A stretch of 32,688 bases of DNA from Candidatus Cloacimonadota bacterium (GTDB lineage: Bacteria > Cloacimonadota > Cloacimonadia > JGIOTU-2): NCBI GenBank assembly GCA_023129415.1, contig JAGMCF010000029.1, positions 1 through 32,688 on the forward strand. Reading direction: 5' to 3'. The notes below the pieces were generated by a model. That model was not told where the DNA came from. It saw nothing but the letters and a program-made list of their open reading frames with translations, and ran no database searches. The translations under genes were made by a program, and so were the position numbers. This document shows, piece after piece, positions 5,326 through 27,244 of the stretch. Position 1 is the stretch's first letter, and each line of letters starts with the position of its first letter.

Positions 5326-6774
5326 ATGAGTTTTAAAGATAATAATGAAGTCAGAGTTCGCTTCGCACCAAGCCCAACTGGGTTTTTGCATGTTGGTGGA
5401 CTGCGAACAGCACTATTTAATTACCTTTTTGCACGAAAAAATAGCGGGAAATTTATTCTTCGTATTGAAGACACTGATCGCAAAAGGTATATACCCGGAG
5501 CAATGGAAAATTTGACTTCAACTTTAAAAATACTTGGACTTCATTATGATGAGGGACCCGATGTCGGTGGAAATTACGGACCATACATCCAATCTGAGAG
5601 AACAGAGTTATACAGGAAATTTGCTAAGAAACTTGTAAACTCAGGTAATGCCTATTACTGTTTTTGTTCAGCAGAAAGGTTGAAAAATCTGCGTGAAGAA
5701 CAAAGAAAAAGCAAATTAGACCCAATGTATGATGGCAAATGTAGAAATCTTTCTAAAGATGAAATTGAGGAAAAACTCAGACTAAATATACCTTTTGTGA
5801 TTCGCCTGAAATTTCCAAAGGAAGGAAAAACTATTTTTTATGATAAGATTCGTGAAAAAGTAGAAGTAGAAAATTCTCTTGTTGATGATCAGGTTCTTAT
5901 CAAGTCAGACGGTTTCCCGACTTATCATTTAGCAAATGTTGTTGATGACCATCTTATGAAAATCACACATATAATCCGCGGTGAGGAATGGCTTTCAAGT
6001 GTACCCAAACATTTTTTTCTGTATAAGTCTTTTGGTTGGGAAATCCCAAAATTAGTTCACCTTCCGCTTCTACTTAATCCTGATAGGAGTAAATTAAGCA
6101 AAAGGCAGGGAGATGTTGCAGTTGAAAATTATCTTGAAAAAGGTTACTTACCAGAAGCATTGATAAATTTTATCGCACTACTTGGCTGGCATGCTCCTGA
6201 TGACAGAGAAATCTATTCTTTAAAAGAATTAGAACAAGCTTTCTCATTAAAACGAATTAATAAATCAAACGCTGTTTTTGATATTGAAAAACTCAACTGG
6301 ATGAACGGCTGGTATCTACGAAAACTGGATATTAATTATATTGCCGAGAAAGCAAAACCTTTCTTTGAAAAATCTGGAATAGACATCAGCGATAGTAAGA
6401 AATATTTAATGGTTATTCAAAACGCTCGAGTTCGTGTTTCCAGTCTATCAGAAATTATTGAGTATTCCAAAATGTTCTATAAAGATTTAGATTTCACTGA
6501 TGAAGATAGAGAACTAATTAATGAAGAAAATTCACAAAAGATCTATTCATATTTGATTGACAAATTAAAAGGGCAAGAAAGTTGGTCTAATGATGATATA
6601 AATTCACTTATAAAAAAAGCAATAGGGGAATTAGGCATAAAAGGTAAAAATTTCTATTTTCCTGTTCGACTTGCTTTATTCGGGAAATGCCACGGTCCCG
6701 ATTTACCAGCAATCATAGAAATTCTTGGAAGAGAAGAAACCATAAAAAGATTGAAAATACTTATTAATAAGTAA
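5326..6774 (+). CDS. gltX: Glutamyl-tRNA synthetase
   Basis: Class I aaRS signature VRFAPSPTGFLHVGGLRTALFNYLFARK, KLSKRQGDVAVENY (KMSKS-like), and 482-aa length. Confidence 0.95.
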   Translation: MSFKDNNEVRVRFAPSPTGFLHVGGLRTALFNYLFARKNSGKFILRIEDTDRKRYIPGAMENLTSTLKILGLHYDEGPDVGGNYGPYIQSERTELYRKFAKKLVNSGNAYYCFCSAERLKNLREEQRKSKLDPMYDGKCRNLSKDEIEEKLRLNIPFVIRLKFPKEGKTIFYDKIREKVEVENSLVDDQVLIKSDGFPTYHLANVVDDHLMKITHIIRGEEWLSSVPKHFFLYKSFGWEIPKLVHLPLLLNPDRSKLSKRQGDVAVENYLEKGYLPEALINFIALLGWHAPDDREIYSLKELEQAFSLKRINKSNAVFDIEKLNWMNGWYLRKLDINYIAEKAKPFFEKSGIDISDSKKYLMVIQNARVRVSSLSEIIEYSKMFYKDLDFTDEDRELINEENSQKIYSYLIDKLKGQESWSNDDINSLIKKAIGELGIKGKNFYFPVRLALFGKCHGPDLPAIIEILGREETIKRLKILINK

Positions 6775-6964: not shown

Positions 6965-8662
6965 ATGAACTCCACAGATTCTACGCCCACAAACTTTCTC
7001 AAAGCAATTGTTGAGGATGATTTAAAAACTGATAAATATGCTGGAAGAGTTCATACTCGTTTTCCACCGGAACCAAATGGCTATCTGCATATAGGGCATG
7101 CAAAGGCAATTTGCATTGATTTCGGTATTGCTGCTGAATATGAAGGGCTTTGTAATTTACGATTTGATGATACAAATCCAACAAAAGAGGACATTGAATA
7201 TATCAAAGCAATTCAGGAAGATATAAAATGGCTTGGGTTCGATTGGGAAGATCGGTTATATTATGCTTCCGATTATTTTGAACAAATGTATAAGTATGCT
7301 ATTCAACTTATAAAAGAAGGTAAAGCGTATGTCTGCAGCTTGAGTGAACAAAAAATTAGAGAATATCGCGGAACTGTAAAACAACCAGGTAAGGAAAGTC
7401 CTTATCGTAACCGTTCTACTGAAGAGAACCTGGACTTGTTTGAACGAATGCATGCAGGAGAATTTAAGGATGGGACTCATGTACTCCGCGCAAAAATTGA
7501 TATGGCGTCCCCAAATATGAAAATGCGTGACCCTCTTATTTATCGTATTAGGCATGCTTCACATCACAGGACAGGAGATAAGTGGTGTATTTATCCGATG
7601 TATGATTTTGCACACTGCCTTGAGGATTCAATCGAAAGGATTACACATTCTTTCTGTACATTAGAATTTGAAAATAATCGAGAAATATATGATTGGTTTC
7701 TTGACGAGTTGAATATTTTTCATTCACAACAGATTGAATTCGCTCGCCTTAATCTCAGCCATACCATAATGAGTAAAAGAAAACTTCTGGAATTAGTAGA
7801 AGGTGGATATGTTACAGGTTGGGATGACCCACGAATGCCTACAATATCTGGTTTGAGAAGACGCGGTTACACGCCTGAATCAATCAGAAATTTTTGTGAC
7901 CGCATTGGAGTGGCTAAGAGTGAAAGTCTGGTAGATATGGCTTTACTTGAGTATTGCATTCGTGAAGATTTGAATAAACGAACTCCGCGTGTGATGGCTG
8001 TATTGAGACCACTTAAGGTAGTAATTGACAACTATCCAGAAGACAAGGTAGAAGAGATGGATGCGGTAAACAATCCGGAAGATCCAAGTATGGGAACACG
8101 AAAAGTTCCTTTGTCGCAGGTGTTATACATTGAACGCGATGATTTCCGGGAGTACCCTCCGAAAAAATTCTTCCGTTTAGCTCCAGATCGTGAGGTTAGA
8201 CTACGATATGCGTATCTTATCAAATGTGTAAATGTAGTTAAGGATAAGCAAACAGGTGAAATAGTTGAATTGCATTGCACCTATGACCCAGCTTCAAGAG
8301 GCGGTTCTTCACCTGATGGACGCAAGGTCAAGGCAACTTTGCACTGGGTTTCTGCAGCTAATTCAATACCAGCAGAAGTTCGCTTGTATGATCATCTGCT
8401 TTCAGTGCCAAATCCAAGCGAAGAAAAAGATTGTGCTGACTTCAAGGATTGTCTGAATCCGAAATCATTAGAAACACTTACATCATGTCGTATTGAGCCA
8501 AGTCTATTATGTGCAAAACCCGGCAATCGATACCAATTTGAACGACTTGGTTATTTCTGTGTTGATCCTGATTCCTCTGATGAAATGCTTGTATTTAACC
8601 GGACCGTAACATTACGGGATACATGGGCAAGAATCCAGAAAGCGGAGAAACAAAAGAGATAG
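6965..8662 (+). CDS. glnS: Glutaminyl-tRNA synthetase
   Basis: [92 protein letters not shown]. Confidence 0.96.
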
Positions 8663-8709: not shown

Positions 8710-9822
8710 ATGTTTAGCAATATTAAATGTCAAAAAAAAGCTATTAATAGTCTAAAGCAGCTCATATCTGCTGGGAAAGAAGCGCAAAGTTATCTTTTCT
8801 ACGGACCAAAAGGTGTAGGAAAATTAGCAACTGCTTTTGAATTTGCAAAAGCTGTAAATTGTCCTAATCAAAAAAATTATGATGCTTGCGATAATTGCTC
8901 ATCTTGTATTAAGATTGATCACTTTACACATCCAGATATTAATTTCATTTTTCCAACTCCAAAATTTGATGTAACTACTGAAGGAGATTTTAGAAAAGAA
9001 AGCGAACAGATTCAAGTCCAGAATTTTATTAAGCAGATTAAATCCACACCGTTTAGTCGCTATAAATTTTCTAAAGCTACTTCTATACAAATTGATACAA
9101 TCAGAAGATTAGAAAGGAAAATCCTTTTTAAACCAACTGAAGGTAAATATCATATAATTATTATTACTGAAGCAGATGAAATGACCAGACAAGCAGCTAA
9201 TGCTTTTCTAAAAACTTTGGAAGAACCACCTCCGTATGCAATTATTATATTAACCACCACAAAATTTTCATCTCTTTTACCAACTATAATTTCAAGATGC
9301 CAGAAAGTTAGATTTAATTCAATTACTCAAGATGTTATTGAAAATCATTTAATAGAGGAATTCAATGTTGATAAAGCTCAAGCAAGGATTATTTCCAGAA
9401 TTTCAAATGGTAATATGGCAAAAGCCATTCTTATGTCCAAAGAGCAACAGATTGAAACCCGAGATATGGCTCTGGATTTTGTAGAATTTATTATGAATAA
9501 CGATTTGGAAGGAATTCATAATTTTTCTGATAATTTTATTCAAAACCGGAATGAAGAGGTGTTAAGAGATATTTTTGACTTCCTCGTGCTTTGGTTTGGA
9601 GATTTATTATACCTAAGCTCAAACCAGAGTAGAATTGTTAATATTGACCAGATGGAAAAACTACAAAATTTTAATCAGATAAGACAACTGTCAAATAAGG
9701 AAATACAAGAAATTATCTTATTAATTGAGCAAAGCAAGAATTTATTAGCTGGGCATATTAATTTTGAACTTATTGTAATTGATACTTTTTTTCAAATTTA
9801 TAACAAAATTTATGGAGATTGA
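8710..9822 (+). CDS. holB: DNA polymerase III subunit delta' (clamp-loader ATPase)
   Basis: Walker A YLFYGPKGVGKLATAFEFAKAVNC, zinc-binding Cys cluster CDNCSSCIKI, ITEADEMTRQAANAFLKTLEEPPPYAIIILTT. Confidence 0.92.
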   Translation: MFSNIKCQKKAINSLKQLISAGKEAQSYLFYGPKGVGKLATAFEFAKAVNCPNQKNYDACDNCSSCIKIDHFTHPDINFIFPTPKFDVTTEGDFRKESEQIQVQNFIKQIKSTPFSRYKFSKATSIQIDTIRRLERKILFKPTEGKYHIIIITEADEMTRQAANAFLKTLEEPPPYAIIILTTTKFSSLLPTIISRCQKVRFNSITQDVIENHLIEEFNVDKAQARIISRISNGNMAKAILMSKEQQIETRDMALDFVEFIMNNDLEGIHNFSDNFIQNRNEEVLRDIFDFLVLWFGDLLYLSSNQSRIVNIDQMEKLQNFNQIRQLSNKEIQEIILLIEQSKNLLAGHINFELIVIDTFFQIYNKIYGD

Positions 9823-9939: not shown

Positions 9940-11694
9940 ATGAAAAAAACATTATTACTTAGTTTCATAATGTTATTTGCAATAACGCAAATAGCTTTCA
10001 CAGACCAAAGTGCATCATATGGATGGGAAGATGGTCTTGGGACTGCTTTAGGTTTCTATGGGAATGCTGTTCTTGAGAATAGTACAGAACAGGCTTATGA
10101 AGGTACACACAGCCTAAAATACACTGAAGATCCAATTGGCGGGACACCCCAAGCGTATATCTGGTGGGTTACTGGATTGACAGATGGAGATATAATTGAT
10201 GCAAGCTTCTGGGTATATGACTATAATGAAGAAAATTTGTATCCAAAAGGAAGGATCTGGGCACATTATACCTCTGATCCTGATGATATTTATTCATATG
10301 CAGGAAGCGCAAGTGGGAACACAAACTATTCAGTAATGGGTTGGTCACAGCTATCATACTCATGGACCTTTGATTCAAGTGGAGGAACGCGAGATGGTTT
10401 TGTTGTTGAAGCACGCATATACAGTGCTGAGGGTGAAAATGTAATTTACATTGATAGTACTGCTATAACTGTCAGTTCAGACACAGCAATAATCTATGAC
10501 TGTAGCCCACCTGTAACTGCTTCAATAGTCATAAGCATTGCTATTAGTATAACTGCTCTTGATGTGCTTTATGATTTAGATTTAACATCAGTTGATGCTG
10601 CTGATTATACCCTAACAGGCACAGAAATCATTACATTCTCAGATGCAACTATTGATGGTACAAATTCACAACTTGTTCATTTAACCGGATCATCTTTAAA
10701 TATGGTTGGCGACTTAATACTTGATAATATTTATGATTCTGCCAATGACACAGATTATGATTTCTATGCAGGTATCACTCCAGTCGCTCTCACAAATACG
10801 AACAATCCTGATGGCCATATTGTAGATGGAGAGTTTGCTACTTTCCAGGGAATTGTCTCCGCTAATGATGAATTCAGAGATGTCTGGATAAGTGATGCTT
10901 ATGGACCTTACAATGGCGTATTAATTTATGATTACGATTTTGATGCTTTTGTTGCAGTTGGAGATGAAATCCTGTTTGTTGCAAAAAGGGATGAATATAT
11001 TAATCTTACCGAGTTAAAAGATCCTATCCTATTATCAATTATTTCATCTGGAAATGAACCCTATCCGCCAGCTCTAATCTCAGGTTCTGATATTGAATCC
11101 ACTATACCAGCAAATACAAATCCTGCCGAACAATGGGAAGGACAATTGGTAGCTATTAATAGTGTATTAGTTGCTTCCACTGTTAGCAAAGACGATATGT
11201 ATATCGGTTCAGATGATGATTGGGTAACTACTTTTGTAATCGGTGATAATGTTGACTATCTGTATGAAAATATTGGTCCAGTATTAGATAATGCAATTGC
11301 TTCTGGCGAACCGATTGATATCAAAGGAGTGGTTGATTGGAATTATAGTAATGAATATTACAGAATTAACCCAAGAACTATTGATGATTTACTGGATGTA
11401 GAGGATTATCCCAATCCTGCTAATTCGTTTGTTCTATATCAGAACTATCCTAATCCAGTGACTTCCTCAACCACGATTTCTTTTTCAGCCACAGATTTAC
11501 ACAGATTATCACAGATAGAAATTTATAATGTAAACGGACAATTGATAAAGCAATTTCCAATAACCAATCACCAATCATCAGTTGAATGGGAAGGAACAGA
11601 TGAAAGTGGCAAACCAGTTTCTAATGGAATCTATCTCTATAAATTGATTGCAGCCAATAAATCCATAACCAAAAAAATGATCCTCCTTCGTTAA
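9940..11694 (+). CDS. Secreted protein with nuclease-associated OB-fold-like region and C-terminal sorting domain
   Basis: Signal peptide MKKTLLLSFIMLFAITQIAFT. Segment HIVDGEFATFQGIVSANDEFRDVWISDAYGPYNGVLIYDYDFDAFVAVGDEILFVAKRDEY resembles OB-fold domains linked to secreted nucleases. Tail SFVLYQNYPNPVTSSTTISF...GIYLYKLIAANKSITKKMILLR. RBS GGAGGAAG. Confidence 0.7.
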   Translation: MKKTLLLSFIMLFAITQIAFTDQSASYGWEDGLGTALGFYGNAVLENSTEQAYEGTHSLKYTEDPIGGTPQAYIWWVTGLTDGDIIDASFWVYDYNEENLYPKGRIWAHYTSDPDDIYSYAGSASGNTNYSVMGWSQLSYSWTFDSSGGTRDGFVVEARIYSAEGENVIYIDSTAITVSSDTAIIYDCSPPVTASIVISIAISITALDVLYDLDLTSVDAADYTLTGTEIITFSDATIDGTNSQLVHLTGSSLNMVGDLILDNIYDSANDTDYDFYAGITPVALTNTNNPDGHIVDGEFATFQGIVSANDEFRDVWISDAYGPYNGVLIYDYDFDAFVAVGDEILFVAKRDEYINLTELKDPILLSIISSGNEPYPPALISGSDIESTIPANTNPAEQWEGQLVAINSVLVASTVSKDDMYIGSDDDWVTTFVIGDNVDYLYENIGPVLDNAIASGEPIDIKGVVDWNYSNEYYRINPRTIDDLLDVEDYPNPANSFVLYQNYPNPVTSSTTISFSATDLHRLSQIEIYNVNGQLIKQFPITNHQSSVEWEGTDESGKPVSNGIYLYKLIAANKSITKKMILLR

Positions 11695-12981: not shown

Positions 12982-15900
12982 TTATCTCAATAAGATTATT
13001 TTCTTTATTTCAGATTTATAATTATCAGTTTCAAGGCGATATAAATAAATGCCATTTGCTACTTTATTACCATTTGTATCCAACCCATTCCAGATAACTT
13101 CATTTAATCCGCATTTTGCATTCTGCATTTCACACTTCTTTACTAATTGCCCCTTTATATTATAGATATTAATTTGAGCATTCTTGTTATAATTTGCAGC
13201 CAATCCAAATGAAATTGTTGTGAAGATTTTTACTGGATTAGGAAAGTTCTGGGCGATAAAATATCTATATTGGTTAGGATTATCATTAACGCTATGGGGT
13301 GGTGTCCAATCAACAAGTCCTGTTCTTTCTAAATCATAGCGATACATGGGCCACAAAATAGAAGAGTCTCCATAAGGAGATTTATAATCAATTATCCAGA
13401 GACCGGATATAGTACCAACCGCAATTTCATAATCTCCATCTTCGTCAATATCTATAATTGCTGGAGGAGATTTTATATCATAACTACAGTAAATTGGGAA
13501 ATCAGATACCATTCCACCATTTGTTGTAATAGCATATAAGTTTTTATCATTACAGCCGAAAATAATATCAAACAATCCATCATCATTAATATCTGCAATA
13601 ATTGGAGTAGATTCAATTGCTGTTCCTGTATTATATGGGAATCCAGAAAGGATATTACCTGCCCAATCTACAACATAAAGTTTTCCAGTCATAGTTCCAA
13701 CGACAATTTCTAAGTCATTAAAACCTTTTAAAGGACTACTATCAAAATTAACAACAACGGGTGATGTCCTTATCTCTCCAGAAAGAGTAATTTCATCTTC
13801 TACAACACCATCTGAAGAAATAATATACAACTTACCAGTAGATGACCCTGCAACAATTTTATAGTCTTCTTCAAACTTGACAATAGTTGGAGCAGAACGA
13901 ATTGCTCCAGAAGTTTCCGCTGTCCAAACTGTATCCGCACTTGTATTTATGCAATATATATTCCCATCGCTACACCCCACAATGATTTCTTTTGCATCAT
14001 CACCATCGATATCAGCAACTGCTACACCCACACCAGAGTACATAAAATTTGGAAGTGTGATTGGGAAGTTTGGATAATTTGCTCCAGATGAATCTATTAC
14101 ATAGAGATCCTTAAATATCGTTTGGAATATTATTTCATAACTCCCATTATTATCAATATCTGAAATTACAGGGGTGCATAAAATATTACCAGTAGAAGCA
14201 AAGGAAAATAACACATCACCATTTGGCTTTAATACATAGATATTGTTACTTCTGGAACCAACTACAATATTAAGCGTGTCATCACCGTTGATGTCTGCAA
14301 TAGCTACAGACCCGTATATTTGATCACCTGTATTAAATGGAAAACCAGGGAATTCATTTCCAGATTTATCGCAGCAATGAACATCACCATTTTTATCACC
14401 AAAGATTACATCTATTTCTCCGTTAGAATCAATATCTACTAAAGCCGGACATCCTAAAACACCATTGATTATTTCAATAGGCCATCCAGATTGATCAAAT
14501 ACTACATCAATGCTAAAATCAAGGTCTGCAGAATAGACGATATTGCTTGTCACATGTAATGTAAAATCAATTGTGCAGACTCCAATTCCTTCCGCGAACT
14601 CTATAGTGAATGGATCTATTAAATTCAATCCTGAAGAGCCTGGAGAAATATTGTTATAGGTTCCAATAGAATCAAGTATTGTTGCACGGGGGTCATCGCA
14701 TCGCAGGATTGCAACAATATCTGTGGCAGTGATAAAGGTCTCTCCGTTAGAAAGCCATATACGGAGATCAATAGTTTCTCCTGGATTGACATTACCATCA
14801 AAATCACCTGTCACCTCAGAAATTAAATAAGAATCAATTTCAAGGAATGGAAGTATACCACCTTCAATATTCATTACTGCTCTATTAACAGCATAAAATC
14901 CAGAAGGCATTCCATCTGGAAGTGAATACCATGAAACATTAGTGGAACCCCATCCAAAATTTAGATGAAAAAGATTATCACCACCACTATCGTATCCATC
15001 ACAAATAATTGCATGACCGCCTCCTGATCCTAAAATGCTTAATGCAGCAGGTTGAGCATCCATCATGTTATCAGCCATCACGGAATAAAAATTTGGATTA
15101 GATGAGTAATAACCAACTGCTGTATCGTATACAAATTTGAATATAAGGGCATCACGCAAATCATTATGTCCGGGATAATAGACATAGGCTCCGGAACCTT
15201 CAGAAGAATAGCCCATATGAACAGCTACTCCGCAAGCGAAAGATAAAGCTGCAATCAGATGATTAGAAAGAGCATCATTTGTTAAATAAACAGCTCGTAT
15301 TTCATCAAGATATGTATTCAATGTAGGAAATGGAGGAAAATTACGAATATACCAATCATCATCAATATGTATATAGGGATAAGTACTTGCGGATGTATAA
15401 TCGTCACTATCATCAAAAGAAGCTTCATTAATATACCTATGATAATTAATTATCTGTGCCAATGCTGTAGCAACACAGCCAACTACACATCTTCCACCAT
15501 GTTCAGGATCTAATGGGCAGTAATCCCAGTATGGTGAGGGGTTTTGGTTCCACTGAGTTTCTATCCAACCGCCTGTAGTTGTGGTTCCTGGTGTTGGCCA
15601 TATACCACGACCCCGGCCTTTGAAAAAATTAATGTTCTCTTTTTCGTAATTTGTCCAGAATAGATTATTTTTGCTTTTAATATCCTCAGATGTTAAAGGG
15701 ATTGCTTCCAATCTTAATTGCATATCCTTTTTCAACATTTGATAGAAAATATTTTGTATAATATCTTCTGGTGAAAAATTATTGCGAAATGAATAAGCAA
15801 TAACAGGTGTTATGTCTGTATCAGTGGAAATAGCGATGTAACCTTTTGGCATCAGGTTGAATACATAAGATAAAATTTTGCCATCATTATCTTTTAGTTC

Positions 15901-19469: not shown

Positions 19470-19680
19470 TTATATCAGCAGTAACATCTTTTTTATTATA
19501 TTAGTTTGGTCAGATTTTAGTTTGTATAGATAAATTCCTGAGGAGACAGGTTTGCCAGTTTCGTCTTTCCCCCCTACCAGACAACAGTGGTTATTGGAGA
19601 TTGGTCATCCCTATTTATCGGGATTGGTATTATTGTCTTCACTAATTGACCATTAATATTATATATTTTTGTTTTCAGTC
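19470..19680 (-). pseudogene. Truncated, frameshifted remnant of a sorting-tail (FlgD/T9SS-like) C-terminal domain
   Basis: Minus-strand frames: LKTKIYNINGQLVKTIIPIPINRDDQSPITTVVW* then, after a shift around the G6 run (19569-19574), GGKDETGKPVSSGIYLYKLKSDQTNIIKKMLLLI*. The N-terminal body of the protein is missing. Confidence 0.8.
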
Positions 19681-20061
19681 CAAAATATGCCTAACTAAAT
19701 CTCCGATTTTTACTGATGATACTCGTTTCTCTTGCAACTGTTCTCTCGTTTCTTCTTCCAAGGGTAATTCTCGTCGCTTAGACTTTTCTGTTAGTATTGC
19801 AGCTATATTGCTCAAAGAAAATGTATATGTCTCATAGGTTTCCGCAGTAGCGAACTTTTCACGGACATAAGTAACTTTTACTTTCGCTTTAACATATTCA
19901 AAGTTACCCAAAGATTTTTTAGTATCAGGATCCTTAACATCTTCGCCAGGCTCGTAGATTACGAAACGCATATCTTCTTCAACACCATGTTCAGATCCCT
20001 TATTAATAATGATTGTATATACATCTATTATCTTGGCAACTTTACCTTCAATTTCTGTCAT
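19675..20061 (-). CDS. Small protein of unknown function with putative beta-barrel (FlgT-C-like) fold; partner of the adjacent TIR-like protein
   Basis: MTEIEGKVAKIIDVYTIIINKGSEHGVEEDMRFVIYEPGEDVKDPDTKKSLGNFEYVKAKVKVTYVREKFATAETY. Strong RBS TAAGGAGGTGTC; only 12 nt downstream of the preceding ORF. Fold assignment is inference. Confidence 0.65.
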   Translation of the reverse strand: MTEIEGKVAKIIDVYTIIINKGSEHGVEEDMRFVIYEPGEDVKDPDTKKSLGNFEYVKAKVKVTYVREKFATAETYETYTFSLSNIAAILTEKSKRRELPLEEETREQLQEKRVSSVKIGDLVRHILD

Positions 20062-20073
20062 AATGACACCTCC

Positions 20074-21090
20074 TTATAACATATTTTGTATATTATTTAT
20101 TAAATCTTTTATTTCTTTTAAGCTTATCTTCTTAACTTCCTCAGTAATAATCAACTCAAGTCTATGCTCATTAGGGACAAAATTATAATTTTTGAAACAA
20201 TACTGAGCAACTTTATCTAAATAATCTCCACCACCTTTTACCATATAAAATTCTACCTGAGCCAATCCAGTTGGTTGCACATGATAAACTCTCAATTGTC
20301 CTACTAACTGTTCAATTTCATTTTCTGAGACATAAAAGTTAAAATAAATATCTTCTGATAAATCCTTCGCTTCTTTTATTATGCCAACTAGCTTTCCTCT
20401 CCGATAGACTATTTGATTTATCTTAAAGTTTCTCTTCCGCAGAGATTGTAGTCTTTCTTTTAAATGGATTAACGGTTTATAATATTTTTTAATATATTGC
20501 TTTAGTTTTTGGGGATCCAAATCTAAGGATTCCTTTATAGGTCTAAAAGGCATTCTTTCTCTTAAACTATCTAATAACTTTTGAGATGCACCAAGCCATC
20601 CTTGAAAATCTATTAATGAAATGTCAATGTATCTAACAAAGTCTATGTCAGATGGGATTTGACGTTTGCCATTCAACTTACGGGACAGTATCAATGCAGG
20701 TTTATTGAATCCATATGCCATCCCTAACTCTAAGGCAACATTCGGGCGCAAGAATACTTTTGTTTCCTTTTTACCCGAGTCCTTATCAATAGTCTCATGA
20801 AGCTCACCTGATATATCAACTATACAGAATTGAGATAATTTTATTTTTAAACAGATGTCACAATAACTGCTTCTATCGTATATTTTGCAATCCGATTTTT
20901 TAAGTTCGTATTTTCTATGGCCACCATAAAATTTTTTGAGTGCGGAGTTTATCGCCTTTTCACGTTCTACTTTTTCAATGTCAAATGGCTGAATCAAGAA
21001 GTATGAGTCAGGTATTATATCCACAGGCTCATATGGACATTTACCAACCATTGGACAATAATTATATATTCTCGTTATCATTTTCCACAA
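20074..21090 (-). CDS. Putative TIR-like / nucleoside-deoxyribosyltransferase-like nucleotide-binding protein with Cys motifs and a C-terminal unknown domain
   Basis: SYFLIQPFDIEKVEREKAINSALKKF...SYCDICLKIKLSQFCIVDISGE...VFLRPNVALELGMAYGFNKPALILSRKLNGKRQIPSDIDFVRYIDISLID (N-V-x-L-E-L-G motif, Rossmann-like). N-terminal CPMVGKC. Overlaps the RM gene by 29 nt. The function call is inferred from motifs only. Confidence 0.6.
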   Translation of the reverse strand: MWKMITRIYNYCPMVGKCPYEPVDIIPDSYFLIQPFDIEKVEREKAINSALKKFYGGHRKYELKKSDCKIYDRSSYCDICLKIKLSQFCIVDISGELHETIDKDSGKKETKVFLRPNVALELGMAYGFNKPALILSRKLNGKRQIPSDIDFVRYIDISLIDFQGWLGASQKLLDSLRERMPFRPIKESLDLDPQKLKQYIKKYYKPLIHLKERLQSLRKRNFKINQIVYRRGKLVGIIKEAKDLSEDIYFNFYVSENEIEQLVGQLRVYHVQPTGLAQVEFYMVKGGGDYLDKVAQYCFKNYNFVPNEHRLELIITEEVKKISLKEIKDLINNIQNML

Positions 21091-23872
21091 TCCCTATCTC
21101 CTCTTTTGTCAAGTCATAAAATTCATAAACCAACCTATCAATTTTCCTATCAAGAATATCTATCTTTTGTTTGTAGAGTTTTTTATCCCTTTCTATTTTT
21201 GCTGAATGAAATTGCTTTTGTGCAGAAAGCATCTGGTCAACAAGGAAAACAAGTGTATTGTGGATTTGCTTTTCAGATGGATTGGAAAAATCTAAAAGTC
21301 TCACTGGGATTTCTTTAACTTGTCCAATTCTAATTTTGGGGAATATATCCGAATCAGATTTAAATTGTTCTTCATAAAAGTATTGAATAAGTTTTGAATT
21401 AATAATAGCTAATAAATATTTTAAGTTAATATTGTTTGATCTAATACAATACAAACTTCTATTTGTAATTATACCTGAATCATCATAGGTTGCTGTAATT
21501 CTGTTTCCAGTTTCACGTATAATCAACTTTTCACTTTTAAATATTTCTTCATCTTTTTTATATTCATTGTATATTTTATTTTCAATGTAATGTTTACTTT
21601 TCACTAGATAGCGAGATATGTCTTCTCCAAATAATATTTCAAAATGATTATTATTGGGAGAAATTGCTAATTTTCTTCCAATTTCTAATCCCCTGGTTAT
21701 CTTTACTATCTCTTCTAATTTTATATTATTTCTCATTAACTCTTTACCAATATTAACCATAGAATAAATATAATTTTCATTGTAAAAAATTTGTTGCGGA
21801 ACTTTATACTCTAAAAATTCACTATTTCTTTTTAAATAAAATGTAACTTTGCTTTTTTTATCTATTTCTTTTTTGAATATTATAATACAAGTAGGCATTT
21901 TTACTTTCTTAAATACACCATCTCCATAATTCCTAACTATTGCAATAGAAGAATTTTCATAAAAATATTTTCTTGAAAATTTATAATTCATCCCTTTCAA
22001 GAATAAATTTGGTATAATGAATCCCAATAATCCAGTAATGCTCAACATTTTAAATGAATTCTCCAAGAATAACTGAAAGATATCAAAAAAACCTTTCGCA
22101 CATTTATATTCAGATTTTGCATATATCTTGGTATTGTTATCTAAATTTTCATATTTAACATACGGTGGATTTCCAATCACCACATCAAAACCTACATCAC
22201 TCAGACCTTCAAGGTTTTGAAAACCTTGAAGGTCTTTATCTTGGTGAAATATTTTCGGAAATTCCTTCTCCCAGTCAAAAGCATTTATCTTTCTCATCGC
22301 ATCATTTCCAAACAGAGACATATCAGCAGTATCGTAAAAATCAGTGCCAATCAAACTATTTCCGCATTTGATATTATTACTCAAATTTGGCAAAGCTCTT
22401 TCATGGAATAGTTTTAATTGGCTTTGCAGTGTTTCTCTGTTTTCACCCTCAAGAACTTTCAATAAAAGGGAAAGTTTTGTTACTTCAACTGCCTGTGGGT
22501 CAATATCCACTCCATAAACATTGTTCAGCAAAATTCGTTTCTTCTCTTGTGTCGTTAATTGGTAACTATCCTCAGAAATTTGGATAATTTTATCCTTATA
22601 TTTTTTAATATCTTTCTGATAAAATTCTAAATGATAATCCAGCAGATATTGATATGCTTGAATAAGGAAGCTACCAGAACCACAAGCAGGATCGCAGATT
22701 GTAATTTTCGAGATTTGTCGTGGTGTTTTTCCTTTTAGCTTTTCACCAACAGTATTTTTTACAATATAATCAACAATGTATTGGGGTGTATAATACACAC
22801 CACCAGCTTTGCGAACTTCTGGCTTTTCCTCAACTTTTGCCTGATGAGAAGGTGTCAGCCGAATGGTCTTGCCAAGAAATTGCTCATAAATATTGCCGAG
22901 AATATCTGCTGGCAGAACAGAAAATTCATAAGGACTTTCAGGATAATAAAGGTGCAGTAAAATGGATTTCAGAACTTTGTCATCAATTGATATGTTAGAA
23001 GAAATTTTGTCTTTTTGAAAATCAAATATGCCACTATTATATTTATCATCTGCTATTCTGAATAGATGAAAGAGGTTTTTGTAAATCTCCTTTTTCTCTG
23101 CAAGTTTATATAAATTACGATAATCTTCAACTCCTCTATCTTCAGCGATTCTTAAGAAAATTATTCTATCAATTGTGAGTTGAACTACAAAATTTATTTC
23201 AAAAATTGAGAGTTTCTTATTTCTCAAAGCTATGTTACGAGCAAGAGTATCCCGCCATCTTTCAATCTCTTTGAGAAATTCTTTGTCCACCTCAGAAGTT
23301 CCTTTTTTCTTTGTTGCAGTGGAGATGTATTTGTCAAAACTTCCTTTTAATATTGATTCTTTGGAAAAGGTGTTATAAATAAAATCCAAATTTTGAAGAT
23401 ATTTATCATAAGTTTGATAATAAATACGAGCTATGCTTGCATTATCCTTTTGGTTTGGTTTTATTCTGCAATCGTAAACAGAGAATTCCTCAAAATCTGT
23501 AAGAATAGAAATTGGTAGTTTTGCACTCCAGGCATATCTGCGAAGCTGGTATGATGGATGAATGTCGTATTTTATATCAACCGCTGGTTTTTTGGCTTCA
23601 ACAAAGAATTTACGCACACCTCCAATGCGAAAGGAATAATCAGGTGCTTTTGTTGTTCCACTGATTTTAATCGTATCTTCGTGGACAACTTCTTTATATT
23701 GTTCAGCAAATCCCTGCTTGTTTGCAACATCCCAGTCAAGTGCAGAAAAGAATGGGTCAAGAAATTCTCGTCTTAGTTGGGTTTCATTATATTTCGGATT
23801 TTTGTATATTTCTTTATTTCTGTGGAAGCGGATAACTAAATTGGAGATAATATTTTTGGTTTTTTCTTTCAT
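21062..23872 (-). CDS. Type IIG (single-polypeptide) restriction endonuclease / N6-adenine DNA methyltransferase
   Basis: N-terminal PD-(D/E)xK-like APDYSFRIGGVRKFFVEAKKP, MTase motif I TICDPACGSGSFLIQAYQYLL, motif IV FDVVIGNPPYVKYE, C-terminal TRD-like region with IIRETGNRITATYDDSGIITNRSLYCIR. 936 aa. Confidence 0.92.
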   Translation of the reverse strand: MKEKTKNIISNLVIRFHRNKEIYKNPKYNETQLRREFLDPFFSALDWDVANKQGFAEQYKEVVHEDTIKISGTTKAPDYSFRIGGVRKFFVEAKKPAVDIKYDIHPSYQLRRYAWSAKLPISILTDFEEFSVYDCRIKPNQKDNASIARIYYQTYDKYLQNLDFIYNTFSKESILKGSFDKYISTATKKKGTSEVDKEFLKEIERWRDTLARNIALRNKKLSIFEINFVVQLTIDRIIFLRIAEDRGVEDYRNLYKLAEKKEIYKNLFHLFRIADDKYNSGIFDFQKDKISSNISIDDKVLKSILLHLYYPESPYEFSVLPADILGNIYEQFLGKTIRLTPSHQAKVEEKPEVRKAGGVYYTPQYIVDYIVKNTVGEKLKGKTPRQISKITICDPACGSGSFLIQAYQYLLDYHLEFYQKDIKKYKDKIIQISEDSYQLTTQEKKRILLNNVYGVDIDPQAVEVTKLSLLLKVLEGENRETLQSQLKLFHERALPNLSNNIKCGNSLIGTDFYDTADMSLFGNDAMRKINAFDWEKEFPKIFHQDKDLQGFQNLEGLSDVGFDVVIGNPPYVKYENLDNNTKIYAKSEYKCAKGFFDIFQLFLENSFKMLSITGLLGFIIPNLFLKGMNYKFSRKYFYENSSIAIVRNYGDGVFKKVKMPTCIIIFKKEIDKKSKVTFYLKRNSEFLEYKVPQQIFYNENYIYSMVNIGKELMRNNIKLEEIVKITRGLEIGRKLAISPNNNHFEILFGEDISRYLVKSKHYIENKIYNEYKKDEEIFKSEKLIIRETGNRITATYDDSGIITNRSLYCIRSNNINLKYLLAIINSKLIQYFYEEQFKSDSDIFPKIRIGQVKEIPVRLLDFSNPSEKQIHNTLVFLVDQMLSAQKQFHSAKIERDKKLYKQKIDILDRKIDRLVYEFYDLTKEEIGIVENDNENI
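22203..22235. repeat. Perfect palindrome (16-bp arms) within the MTase coding sequence
   Basis: a-gaccttcaaggtttt-g-aaaaccttgaaggtc-t. Encodes DLQGFQNLEGL in frame. Confidence 0.95.
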
Positions 23873-23952
23873 AATTTTAGCTTTTTGGATTAAATAGTCT
23901 TGTCAACAAATTTATCTGAATCTTCCAAATTTACATATCGTGCTTTATTGGC

Positions 23953-24091
23953 ATTTTACACACCCCGTCATTCCGACTTCGTCAGAATGCCACCCCTCTT
24001 CCGACAGAGGACGGACAGGCAAGAGGGGATTTTTTTGCATATCTCCCCTATCAAGAGAAGAAACGGCTTTAGCCGAGAGATGTGTAATTCA
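23953..24091. repeat. GC-richer intergenic element with nested inverted repeats
   Basis: ccccgtcattccgac-ttcg-tcagaatgccacccctcttccgacagaggacggacaggcaagagggg... Stems cattccgac/gtcagaatg (one mismatch) and cccctctt/aagagggg. Confidence 0.6.
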
Positions 24092-24104
24092 TCACCCATA
24101 TTAT

Positions 24105-24926
24105 CTATATCCTCAAAGAAACCTGATAAACTCGGTTCTTTTTAATATTAATGCTTTTTGAAATTTCCTTTACTGCTTCCCTTTTTGAAAGACCGAGACT
24201 AATTTTTTCCCGTAATAATTTCTCAATTTCCGAATCAGAGATTTCTCTTTCTTCAGCACCTTCAAGTAAAATTACAAATTCTCCTTTTAGATTTGTTTCA
24301 TCTAATTGCGATAATACTTCTTTAATAGTTCCTCGGAAAAATGTCTCATAAATTTTCGTTAATTCCTTTGCAACTACTACTTGCTGATTGCCCAAAATAT
24401 CTAAAAAATTCTGGAGAGTTTGAATTACTCTTTTTGGGGATTCGTAAAAAATTAAGGTCTCTTCTCGTAAAATAAAATTTTGTAGAAATGCTCTTTGTTT
24501 GCTTTTTGATTTTGGAAGAAATCCGAAAAAGGAGAAATTTTCAGTTGAAAGTCCTGAAGCTGAAAGAGCAGTTATGATAGCAGAAGGTCCGGGAATTGGA
24601 ATGACTGGAATTTCATTTTTGATGCATTCCTTTACAATTATCTGCGATGGATCAGAAATTCCGGGTGTTCCAGCATCAGAAATCACTGCAATGCTTTTGC
24701 CAGATTTCAACTTATCAATTAGAAATTCAGTTTTTCGTTTTTCATTGAATTTATGATAGCTAATTAACTCTGTTTTAATATCATACTTTGCAGTTAATTT
24801 TGATGAGTTCCGAGTATCCTCAGCTGCTATTAAATCTACTTCTTGCAGAATTCTTATCGCACGGAAGGTTATGTCTTCCAGATTACCGATTGGGGTTGCT
24901 ACGATGTATAAAGTGCCTATTTTCAT
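24105..24926 (-). CDS. rsmI: 16S rRNA (cytidine(1402)-2'-O)-methyltransferase
   Basis: MKIGTLYIVATPIGNLEDITFRAIRILQEVDLIAAEDTRNSSKL, SDAGTPGISDPSQIIV, IPIPGPSAIITALSASGLST, FFGFLPKSKSKQ. Confidence 0.95.
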   Translation of the reverse strand: MKIGTLYIVATPIGNLEDITFRAIRILQEVDLIAAEDTRNSSKLTAKYDIKTELISYHKFNEKRKTEFLIDKLKSGKSIAVISDAGTPGISDPSQIIVKECIKNEIPVIPIPGPSAIITALSASGLSTENFSFFGFLPKSKSKQRAFLQNFILREETLIFYESPKRVIQTLQNFLDILGNQQVVVAKELTKIYETFFRGTIKEVLSQLDETNLKGEFVILLEGAEEREISDSEIEKLLREKISLGLSKREAVKEISKSINIKKNRVYQVSLRI

Positions 24927-25091
24927 ATTTTATCTTTAATGAAGAATCAAAATTGAAATGATTTACTCCGTAAAATAAAAAATATCTTACAGAGTATAAA
25001 AGACAATTTAATTTAAGTATTTGTTCAGAATTATTACTCAATCCATTTAAAAAATATAATATTAAAAAATTTATGAAACTTTCTCCAATAC

Positions 25092-25491: not shown

Positions 25492-26340
25492 CTATTCGGT
25501 AAGAATCTCTAATTGGTGATTTTCTTTAATTCTTGGTGGATAAAACAATCCAATAATTATAAATGGATTACGATAATTTTTAAGATGATTTTCAAAATTA
25601 GTACCGACGAAAAAATATAAATCCTTATTAAGGGCAAATTCGTCGAAATATTTCTTTTTAACAAGATTAATAGATTCTAATTCATTGCCATTAGTTTGCT
25701 TTAAACAATTCCAGTATAAAGCACCTATCTCCCAGTCCTCAATCATTAATTTTCTTGGATTTTTATCTCCCTCTGAAAGAAATTTATAATAAAATTTATA
25801 AGGCACCTTCTTTATAATTTTTGATATTTGTAATTTGTCAAAAATCTCAAGTTGAGCCCACCTAGCTTTCCATTTTGGTTTCCATTCTCTTTCATCTTCT
25901 TCAAAATCAAATCCAATTATTTTTAATGGTTTTAATGTAGCTAAAGATTTCTTTTGATCCTCTCTTGCAAGGCTAATTAATTTATCAAATGAATAAAAAA
26001 CCTCTTTCAAAACAAACTTTTTTCTAGTTTTCCATCCATCCTTAGTTCCAATTCTGTTTAAAATCTTGAGATTTTGATCAACATCTTTCTTAGGATGATA
26101 GCTTTCAGGTCGAAAATCAGTTGTTAATTTAACAAGATCAATCTCAATCCAATGATATTTTTTGAATTGTTTCTCTTTTGAGAGAAATCTAAAAAGTATA
26201 GGATATATTCTAATCCATTTACCATTTTCTAAGAGTCCTGCAGTACATACGACTTCACCATGGGAGGTAGTAGGAAGCGGATAAGTTTTAACAGTAATTA
26301 AAACCTTTGCTTTGGGAATATCATGAGGTAGGTATTCCAT
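25492..26340 (-). CDS. Conserved protein of unknown function paired with DUF488 protein
   Basis: KVLITVKTYPLPTTSHGEVVCTAGLLENGKWIRIYPILFRFLSKEKQFKKYHWIEIDL; C-terminal FFVGTNFENHLKNYRNPFIIIGLFYPP. 10-nt gap to the upstream DUF488 gene. Confidence 0.65.
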   Translation of the reverse strand: MEYLPHDIPKAKVLITVKTYPLPTTSHGEVVCTAGLLENGKWIRIYPILFRFLSKEKQFKKYHWIEIDLVKLTTDFRPESYHPKKDVDQNLKILNRIGTKDGWKTRKKFVLKEVFYSFDKLISLAREDQKKSLATLKPLKIIGFDFEEDEREWKPKWKARWAQLEIFDKLQISKIIKKVPYKFYYKFLSEGDKNPRKLMIEDWEIGALYWNCLKQTNGNELESINLVKKKYFDEFALNKDLYFFVGTNFENHLKNYRNPFIIIGLFYPPRIKENHQLEILTE

Positions 26341-26350
26341 AAATTCTATT

Positions 26351-27244
26351 CTACAAATGAATGATTTTAATATCGAAATTCTTGTACTTAGATAAATAAT
26401 TTGAAATTATATGCCTATGACACCTTTGATAATCCTTTTCAAAACACATTAGTGCAATTCGTCTATATAGTTTAATAAAATTTATTATCATTTTAAGGTC
26501 TTTTTTTCGTTTTTGCAAAACTTCTTTTTCATATAGAATGAATAATTCTTTATAATCTTTTAAAGTTGAAAGGTTTTGTCTAAATTCTAACTTTATACCT
26601 AATTCGGGAATGTGAATATAATTAATTTCTACTTTTGATAAATAATCACTCAATTTTTTCTTTGAAAAATTTAATTTCATTGAAAATGGATTTTTCCTAA
26701 CATCAATAACCATCTTAATATTGTTTTCAATAAGTTTATTTAAAAAAGAATCAATGGTTAAACTTTCATATCCTATTGTAAACAAAGCTGGATGATTATT
26801 GAATTGATTTGAAGAGATAATCTCAGTTTTCTCATTAGAAGTTAAAAATTTATCTATAACTTCACTTTTGCTGGCATAATATGGATACTCAAAATAGGTT
26901 TTCTTTATTATTTCATTGCTGTTATAGTTTTTCATTTTATTATAAAACAGGTTTAAATTATTTCTATCTTGTTGCTTTAATTGAATTAAAAAGGACTCAT
27001 TTATATTTAGTATAAAATTGTCTGAATTTTTTAAAAAACCTTGCTGAGTTAGGATCCGTTTATCATGATAACTAACAAAACTGAAACAACCAAATTTATA
27101 TGGGAAGAATTCATAGAATTTTTGGTTGAATTCTTTACAATATAAAAACATCAATTTTTCGAAGTCAGTGTTATCTAATTCATTACCAAATATTTCTACC
27201 AAAGCAAGTAATATTTTTCTTCGATAAAACATTAGCACTTTCAT
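26351..27244 (-). CDS. DUF488 domain protein with N-terminal Panacea/SocA-like domain
   Basis: C-terminal half ALFTIGYESLTIDSFLNKLIENNIKMVIDVRKNPFSMKLNFSKKKLSDYL...YIHIPELGI...IALMCFEKDYQRCHRHIIS (DUF488 hallmarks). N-terminal RRKILLALVEIFGNELDNTDFEKLMFLYCKEF...FGCFSFVSYHDKRILTQQGFL resembles Panacea antitoxin domains (weaker). Initiation may be at the internal ATG at 27232, given GGAGG placement. Confidence 0.7.
   Translation of the reverse strand: MKVLMFYRRKILLALVEIFGNELDNTDFEKLMFLYCKEFNQKFYEFFPYKFGCFSFVSYHDKRILTQQGFLKNSDNFILNINESFLIQLKQQDRNNLNLFYNKMKNYNSNEIIKKTYFEYPYYASKSEVIDKFLTSNEKTEIISSNQFNNHPALFTIGYESLTIDSFLNKLIENNIKMVIDVRKNPFSMKLNFSKKKLSDYLSKVEINYIHIPELGIKLEFRQNLSTLKDYKELFILYEKEVLQKRKKDLKMIINFIKLYRRIALMCFEKDYQRCHRHIISNYLSKYKNFDIKIIHL

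Follow-up and report, generated by a model that had tools for sequence, protein, structure and literature searches.

A TIR-like/FlgT_C-like gene pair as a probable exchangeable cassette at the 3' end of a type IIG RM gene

The arrangement of three genes in a Candidatus Cloacimonadota genome raises the question of whether genes that directly follow a type IIG RM gene belong to the RM system or only occupy the place behind it. The window, meaning the whole stretch of 32,688 nucleotides that was analysed, carries an RM gene followed by a gene for a TIR-like protein and a gene for a small FlgT_C-like protein. A first-pass annotation of this DNA had regarded the three as one operon, in which the latter two genes form an effector module coupled to the RM enzyme.

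Gene layout and protein families in the window

The three genes lie head-to-tail on the minus strand (Table 1), and the consecutive open reading frames of the first-pass annotation (21062-23872, 20074-21090 and 19675-20061) are present as described. The middle gene has two candidate starts, a TTG at 21090 (338 aa) and an ATG at 21081 (335 aa), which overlap the RM gene by 29 nt and 20 nt, respectively. The 335-aa start is preferred because all four close relatives of the protein begin at this position; thus, the overlap noted earlier is retained at 20 nt, and its previously given length of 29 nt would apply only if the TTG were used. The Shine-Dalgarno sequence of the TIR-like gene (GAGGAGAT) sits inside the RM 3' tail. 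The small gene follows the TIR-like gene at a distance of 12 nt and is preceded by a strong Shine-Dalgarno sequence (AAGGAGGTG), so that both the gap and the ribosome-binding site reported before are found.

Table 1. Coordinates of the features discussed, as positions in the window
Feature	Position	Strand	Basis
Type IIG RM enzyme, 936 aa, docking gene	21062..23872	-	Pfam and PADLOC, motifs read
RM 3' tail, last ~80 codons	21074..21313	-	tail HMM; sole copy in window
335-aa TIR-like protein	20074..21081	-	sequence and Pfam profile comparison
128-aa FlgT_C-like partner	19675..20061	-	sequence and Pfam profile
T9SS-type C-terminal sorting tail remnant of an unrelated exported protein	19470..19674	-	three-frame reading
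rsmI, locus anchor	24105..24926	-	DNA identity to sibling genome G005

The RM protein is a type IIG enzyme in which nuclease, N6-methylase and specificity domain share one chain. Its HSDR_N nuclease, Eco57I/N6 methylase and TaqI_C specificity domains all score above their Pfam cut-offs, the PADLOC model REase_MTase_IIG matches with an E-value of 5e-198, and the PD..ExK, DPACGSGSF and NPPY motifs can be read in the sequence. The neighbours of the pair in the window are the RM gene, rsmI, xseA and others. A second candidate defence pair lies in a low-GC stretch at 25492-27244 on the minus strand and matches PADLOC PDC-M19B (E 7e-106) and PDC-M19A with DUF488 (E 4e-101). On the other side, a broken T9SS sorting tail begins right at the stop of the small gene; the body of the exported protein is missing, and the remnant is similar in DNA to another sorting tail at 11560-11643. 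This remnant would be the downstream scar of the cassette in the window genome, and no RM tail is present at this place.

Residues 99-154 of the window 335-aa protein match the Pfam family CAP12-PCTIR_TIR (PF10137) with 19.4 bits against a cut-off of 24.7. Two of the four close relatives pass this cut-off over residues 35/36-154 (26.4 and 26.5 bits), and the other two remain below it (21.0 and 20.6 bits). Accordingly graded, the family appears TIR-like at its N-terminus, with the window copy itself sub-threshold, and the TIR-like domain of the first-pass annotation is upheld by two of five family members. The TIR-like region reaches about residue 154, and the C-terminal half of the window protein has no profile match. 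The ELG glutamate and paired cysteines pointed out earlier are also present: E118 (NVALELG) and the cysteines C9, C15, C74 and C77 (the Cys4 motif) are unchanged in all five sequences, and NVALELGMAYGFNKPALIL, present in the window protein, is almost invariant among them. E118 is thereby a conserved, putative catalytic glutamate. A distant archaeal relative (L013:751-2112) likewise has a glutamate at this place (NVLIEFG). It joins the same Cys/TIR-like N-terminus to TPR repeats, lies beside ribosomal protein genes and, as judged from this fusion, would have an effector-plus-variable-module layout.

The 128-aa partner scores 21.9 bits against FlgT_C (PF16538; cut-off 27), and its relative in locus L005 passes with 27.6 bits. 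The partner can be described from these profile scores as FlgT_C-like, in agreement with the earlier suggestion of a small beta-type protein, one family member being above the cut-off. Unlike FlgT_C domains in other contexts, it is a stand-alone small protein beside a TIR-like gene, and there are no flagellar genes in the window. AlphaFold models of the 335-aa and 128-aa proteins had pLDDT values of 33 and 32.5, too low for fold comparison, and for this reason the folds of both proteins are assigned from profiles only; PDB sequence searches with the two proteins returned nothing meaningful. The 335-aa family resembles the TIR proteins of CAP12/Pycsar (PF10137) in its TIR-like domain with an ELG region and differs from them in its Cys4 motif, its C-terminal half and its FlgT_C-like partner. 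No CBASS or Pycsar cyclase is found among the neighbouring genes, five scanned proteins gave no cyclase model match, and the RM, pair and M19 genes gave no match to Thoeris ThsA/ThsB.

Distribution of the pair and its separation from the RM gene

Across about 85,000 species genomes, a scan that detects close relatives only yielded just four relatives of the 335-aa protein (73-75% identity), all in genomes labelled as ANME-1, Methanophagales or Methanomicrobia archaea. Apart from the window, the pair was found only in methane-eating archaea. In all four the gene for the 128-aa protein, with 62-68% identity to the window copy, lies 3' of the TIR-like gene. Both genes are therefore real and not chance open reading frames, and their expected co-occurrence is seen in the window and in each archaeal relative, with other defence genes repeatedly in their company. 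The TIR/FlgT_C pair is a real, transferable module and probably a defensive one. Of 125 genomes from the same phylum as the window, only the window's has the pair, and the archaeal copies resemble one another no more closely than they resemble the window copy (69-80%). Plasmids, phages and viral contigs were searched for relatives of the pair and none were found, which gives no support to transport on a known mobile element.

The window RM shares 47-58% identity with the ANME RMs, as opposed to the 73-75% of the TIR-like protein. This discrepancy indicates different histories for the pair and the RM gene, and the pair so appears to have moved separately. The window RM is closer to the RM of G005, a genome of the same family (63%), and to a second RM in its own genome (68%). 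In G005 the RM gene is found at the same place beside rsmI (locus L106), and window positions 23501-24933 are 82% identical in DNA to L106 8308-9737 over 1,442 bp. Behind this RM, G005 carries a different gene of 478 aa and then a stand-alone RM tail. A further genome of the same family, G015, has the order RM, UvrD-type helicase, tail, 309-aa gene, tail. The tail HMM found no second RM tail in the window, and because only one tail is present there, the cassette status of the window pair rests on its relatives and on the sibling locus.

Two further observations concern this group of genomes. A 54-bp element at 23948-24000 is 96% identical to a copy at L106 3790-3843, downstream of the stand-alone tail; the two copies apparently lie on opposite sides of the RM gene and are possibly MITE-like. 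Another contig of the window's own genome (C66; L121:1667-6592) encodes a phosphoesterase and a 323-aa gene, followed by a weak tail match, a 311-aa gene, a SIR2 gene and a still weaker tail match, and is a probable second array.

Direct repeats of the RM 3' end and the cargo between them

Direct repeats of the RM gene's final ~60 codons are found downstream of the gene in members of the ANME-1 order. The array analysis drew on 44 fetched loci, and most genomes used are draft or metagenome assemblies. In one archaeal locus (L003) the RM gene's own end (6541-6739) is followed by tails at 7727-7905 and 9426-9625, with 84-87% DNA identity, and by a 62-bp tail piece at 15672-15733; between the tails are found a 337-aa gene, the TIR/FlgT_C pair, a PycTM-like gene (28 bits) with a DUF2441 gene, and others. 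The order of RM tail, pair and tail is repeated in L005. G060 and G400 have the last part of the small gene with a tail after it, and in L004 a dozen codons similar to the tail end come after the pair, before another recurrent array cargo. Stand-alone tails were also found behind RMs outside the ANME-1 order, some of them on multi-megabase contigs.

An RM-tail query matched 29 of 53 ANME-1-order genomes and gave 26 contigs with two to five tails, whereas a control query with the N-terminal 80 residues of the RM gave 57 matches and not a single contig with two. The extra tails lie on the RM strand in every case (50 of 50, in 26 RM-bearing loci). Among 72 stand-alone tails, 68 are complete to the RM 3' end, their 5' starts vary, and no piece of the RM body lies beside any of them; the repeated unit is thus the tail and not the whole gene. 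Synonymous conservation is higher in the tail (0.77) than in the RM body (0.67; p 0.009), an excess too modest for a strong DNA-level constraint on the tail to be claimed. Stand-alone tails are no closer to the local RM tail (86.6%) than to other RM tails (85.9%), and tail length shows no decay with rank from the RM (rho -0.14, p 0.39). Simple local tandem duplication was dropped as an explanation on these two grounds.

In an archaeal locus (L110:9080-11132) an RM is followed by four tails about 455 bp apart; GmrSD and AlbA_2 genes come next, and after them another two tails. In L069 and L072 the RM genes are shrunk to an N-terminus plus tail, and the cargo array behind them remains.

The open reading frames between the tails recur in varying order and in various genomes. 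They include matches to SIR2 (PADLOC PDC-S65), TIR_2 (twice), SLFN_AlbA_2, DUF6414, DUF2254 and a calcineurin-like phosphoesterase, as well as weak matches to an ApeA-type HEPN and a pPIWI-associated nuclease; several cargo families match no Pfam or PADLOC model. The TIR/FlgT_C pair is one of many unrelated cargoes found between RM tails, and when profiles were compared, the TIR-like family showed no significant similarity to the other TIR cargo (probability 4.6%).

The junctions are specific to the cargo. In four loci the next tail begins 22 nt past the stop of the SIR2 cargo and starts with the same tail codon, and other cargo families likewise keep a cargo-tail spacing of their own. The tail ends just before a cargo are more similar within a cargo family (0.63) than between families (0.46; permutation p 0.0005), as would be expected if crossovers fall inside the tail. 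Cargo frequently starts close to the repeat, with 47 open reading frames beginning less than 200 nt past a tail and many less than 20 nt; these starts lie behind the tail's GGAGGAGGTG-like sequence, and the window junction is of the same design.

Probable docking at the RM 3' end and competing explanations

The TIR/FlgT_C pair is probably a defence cassette that can be exchanged and has docked behind the type IIG RM gene, at its 3' end. Conservation of the pair, arrays, repeats, junctions and the independent histories of RM and pair are the observations behind this reading; its mechanism would be homologous recombination, with the last ~60 codons of RM genes as the shared block of homology. 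A cassette would consist of cargo together with an RM tail that lacks its 5' part, and would enter or leave through tail-tail recombination. The RM gene would stay intact, new cargo would come to lie directly behind it and use a Shine-Dalgarno sequence from within the RM tail, and older cargo would be displaced downstream with a leftover tail between units. The window would then represent the simplest state, one RM and one cargo, the close relatives of which reside in ANME-1 archaeal arrays. Because tails are neither closest to the local RM nor decaying with distance, the order-of-insertion part of this model is unsupported; both features would be expected if genomes traded cassettes from a well-mixed pool. 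No recombination intermediate was seen. The cargo itself would probably be an infection-triggered effector, in which the Cys4 TIR-like domain may consume or convert NAD+ or a nucleotide with E118 as the catalytic residue, the C-terminal half of the 335-aa protein may serve sensing or oligomerisation, and the FlgT_C-like protein may be an obligate partner. The NAD+/nucleotide activity and the abortive-infection role suggested in the first-pass annotation are thus putative.

Genomic islands insert at gene 3' ends, and by analogy the cargo could have been brought in by a transposon or a site-specific recombinase for which the RM 3' end is the target or becomes duplicated. This explanation is unlikely, yet it fits a repeat that is always the 3' end of the gene, with the 3' ~30 codons most often kept. 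The repeat varies in length from about 20 to 75 codons, however, its alignment has no sharply conserved core, and no integrase or transposase occurs among the cargo proteins scanned. Some RM units are known to insert with target duplications of ~100 bp (PMC3874152), which makes a transposition-type route conceivable; in that form of mobility the RM is the inserted unit, whereas in the arrays the RM end is duplicated and defence genes are inserted.

It is rather doubtful that the pair is a dedicated partner of the RM, a back-up effector that responds to failed restriction or to RM inhibition. In the window the pair does follow the RM immediately and with a gene overlap, and an RM lies upstream in three of the four relatives. 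Nevertheless, the pair in L004 has no RM within 8 kb upstream, L003 has another gene and a tail between RM and pair, RMs of the same family carry dozens of other cargoes, and the window RM is far less similar to the ANME RMs than the pair is to its relatives. The functional coupling of pair and RM put forward in the first-pass annotation is therefore not sustained. Since the pair is separable and RM 3' ends carry many unrelated cargoes, the RM looks like a docking site.

A third explanation, that the tails are remnants of decayed tandem RM copies and no cassette mechanism exists, is improbable. Some RM pseudogenes and single, stand-alone N-terminal fragments do occur elsewhere in these genomes, and some tails contain stops, but decay of whole copies agrees poorly with the missing RM body fragments, the preserved 3' ends, the contrast between tail and N-terminal queries and the cargo-specific junctions conserved across genomes. 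Finally, the NDT and TIR folds are related and the distant relative L013 weakly matches Nuc_deoxyrib_tr (17.0 bits against 28.8), but a housekeeping nucleoside deoxyribosyltransferase-like role for the 335-aa protein is very hard to credit given its patchy distribution (one of 125 genomes of the phylum plus four archaea), its better Pfam match to CAP12-PCTIR_TIR and the defence genes around its relatives.

Relative to known systems, the docked-cassette arrangement most recalls Rhs arrays, in which 5'-truncated direct repeats, each followed by a different unit, lie behind an intact head gene (PMC2935791). RM-tail arrays similarly have an intact gene at the head and direct repeats of variable length, 5'-truncated and 3'-complete, with a different, unrelated unit behind each. 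Such same-strand repeats with different downstream units are found in the ANME-1 and sibling loci, and the window has the head and one unit. For Rhs, C-terminal displacement by homologous recombination via circular intermediates has been proposed (Jackson et al. 2009, PMC2935791). Unlike Rhs, the head gene is a type IIG RM, and in place of toxin tips the cargo consists of whole, separate defence genes, the repeat being the very end of the gene. Contrary to the Rhs prediction, RM tails are not nearest to their own head gene and do not shorten with distance from it. Integron cassettes offer a second parallel, as cargo and short repeat are joined head-to-tail in one orientation behind a head gene; unlike integrons, the RM-tail cargo scanned lacks an integrase, and the repeat is RM coding sequence of variable length.

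What is newly seen is the type IIG RM 3' end as a repeat-bounded docking site; no description of RM-tail arrays was found in the open-licence papers searched. A broader proposition, less assured but slightly favoured, is that in Bacteria and Archaea alike anti-phage genes generally dock and are shuffled at type IIG RM 3' ends. This would be an integron-like cassette system with the RM tail as recombination block, by which cassettes such as the TIR/FlgT_C pair travel between ANME-1 archaea and bacteria in their neighbourhood. The gathering of defence genes into islands and their movement between unrelated hosts are largely unexplained, and RM-tail arrays would offer a simple physical mechanism for both. 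They also provide a handle for searches, any gene between RM tail copies being a candidate defence gene. The TIR/FlgT_C pair, with its Cys4 motif, may be a new effector subfamily. The arrays also suggest that archaea and bacteria exchange immune genes.
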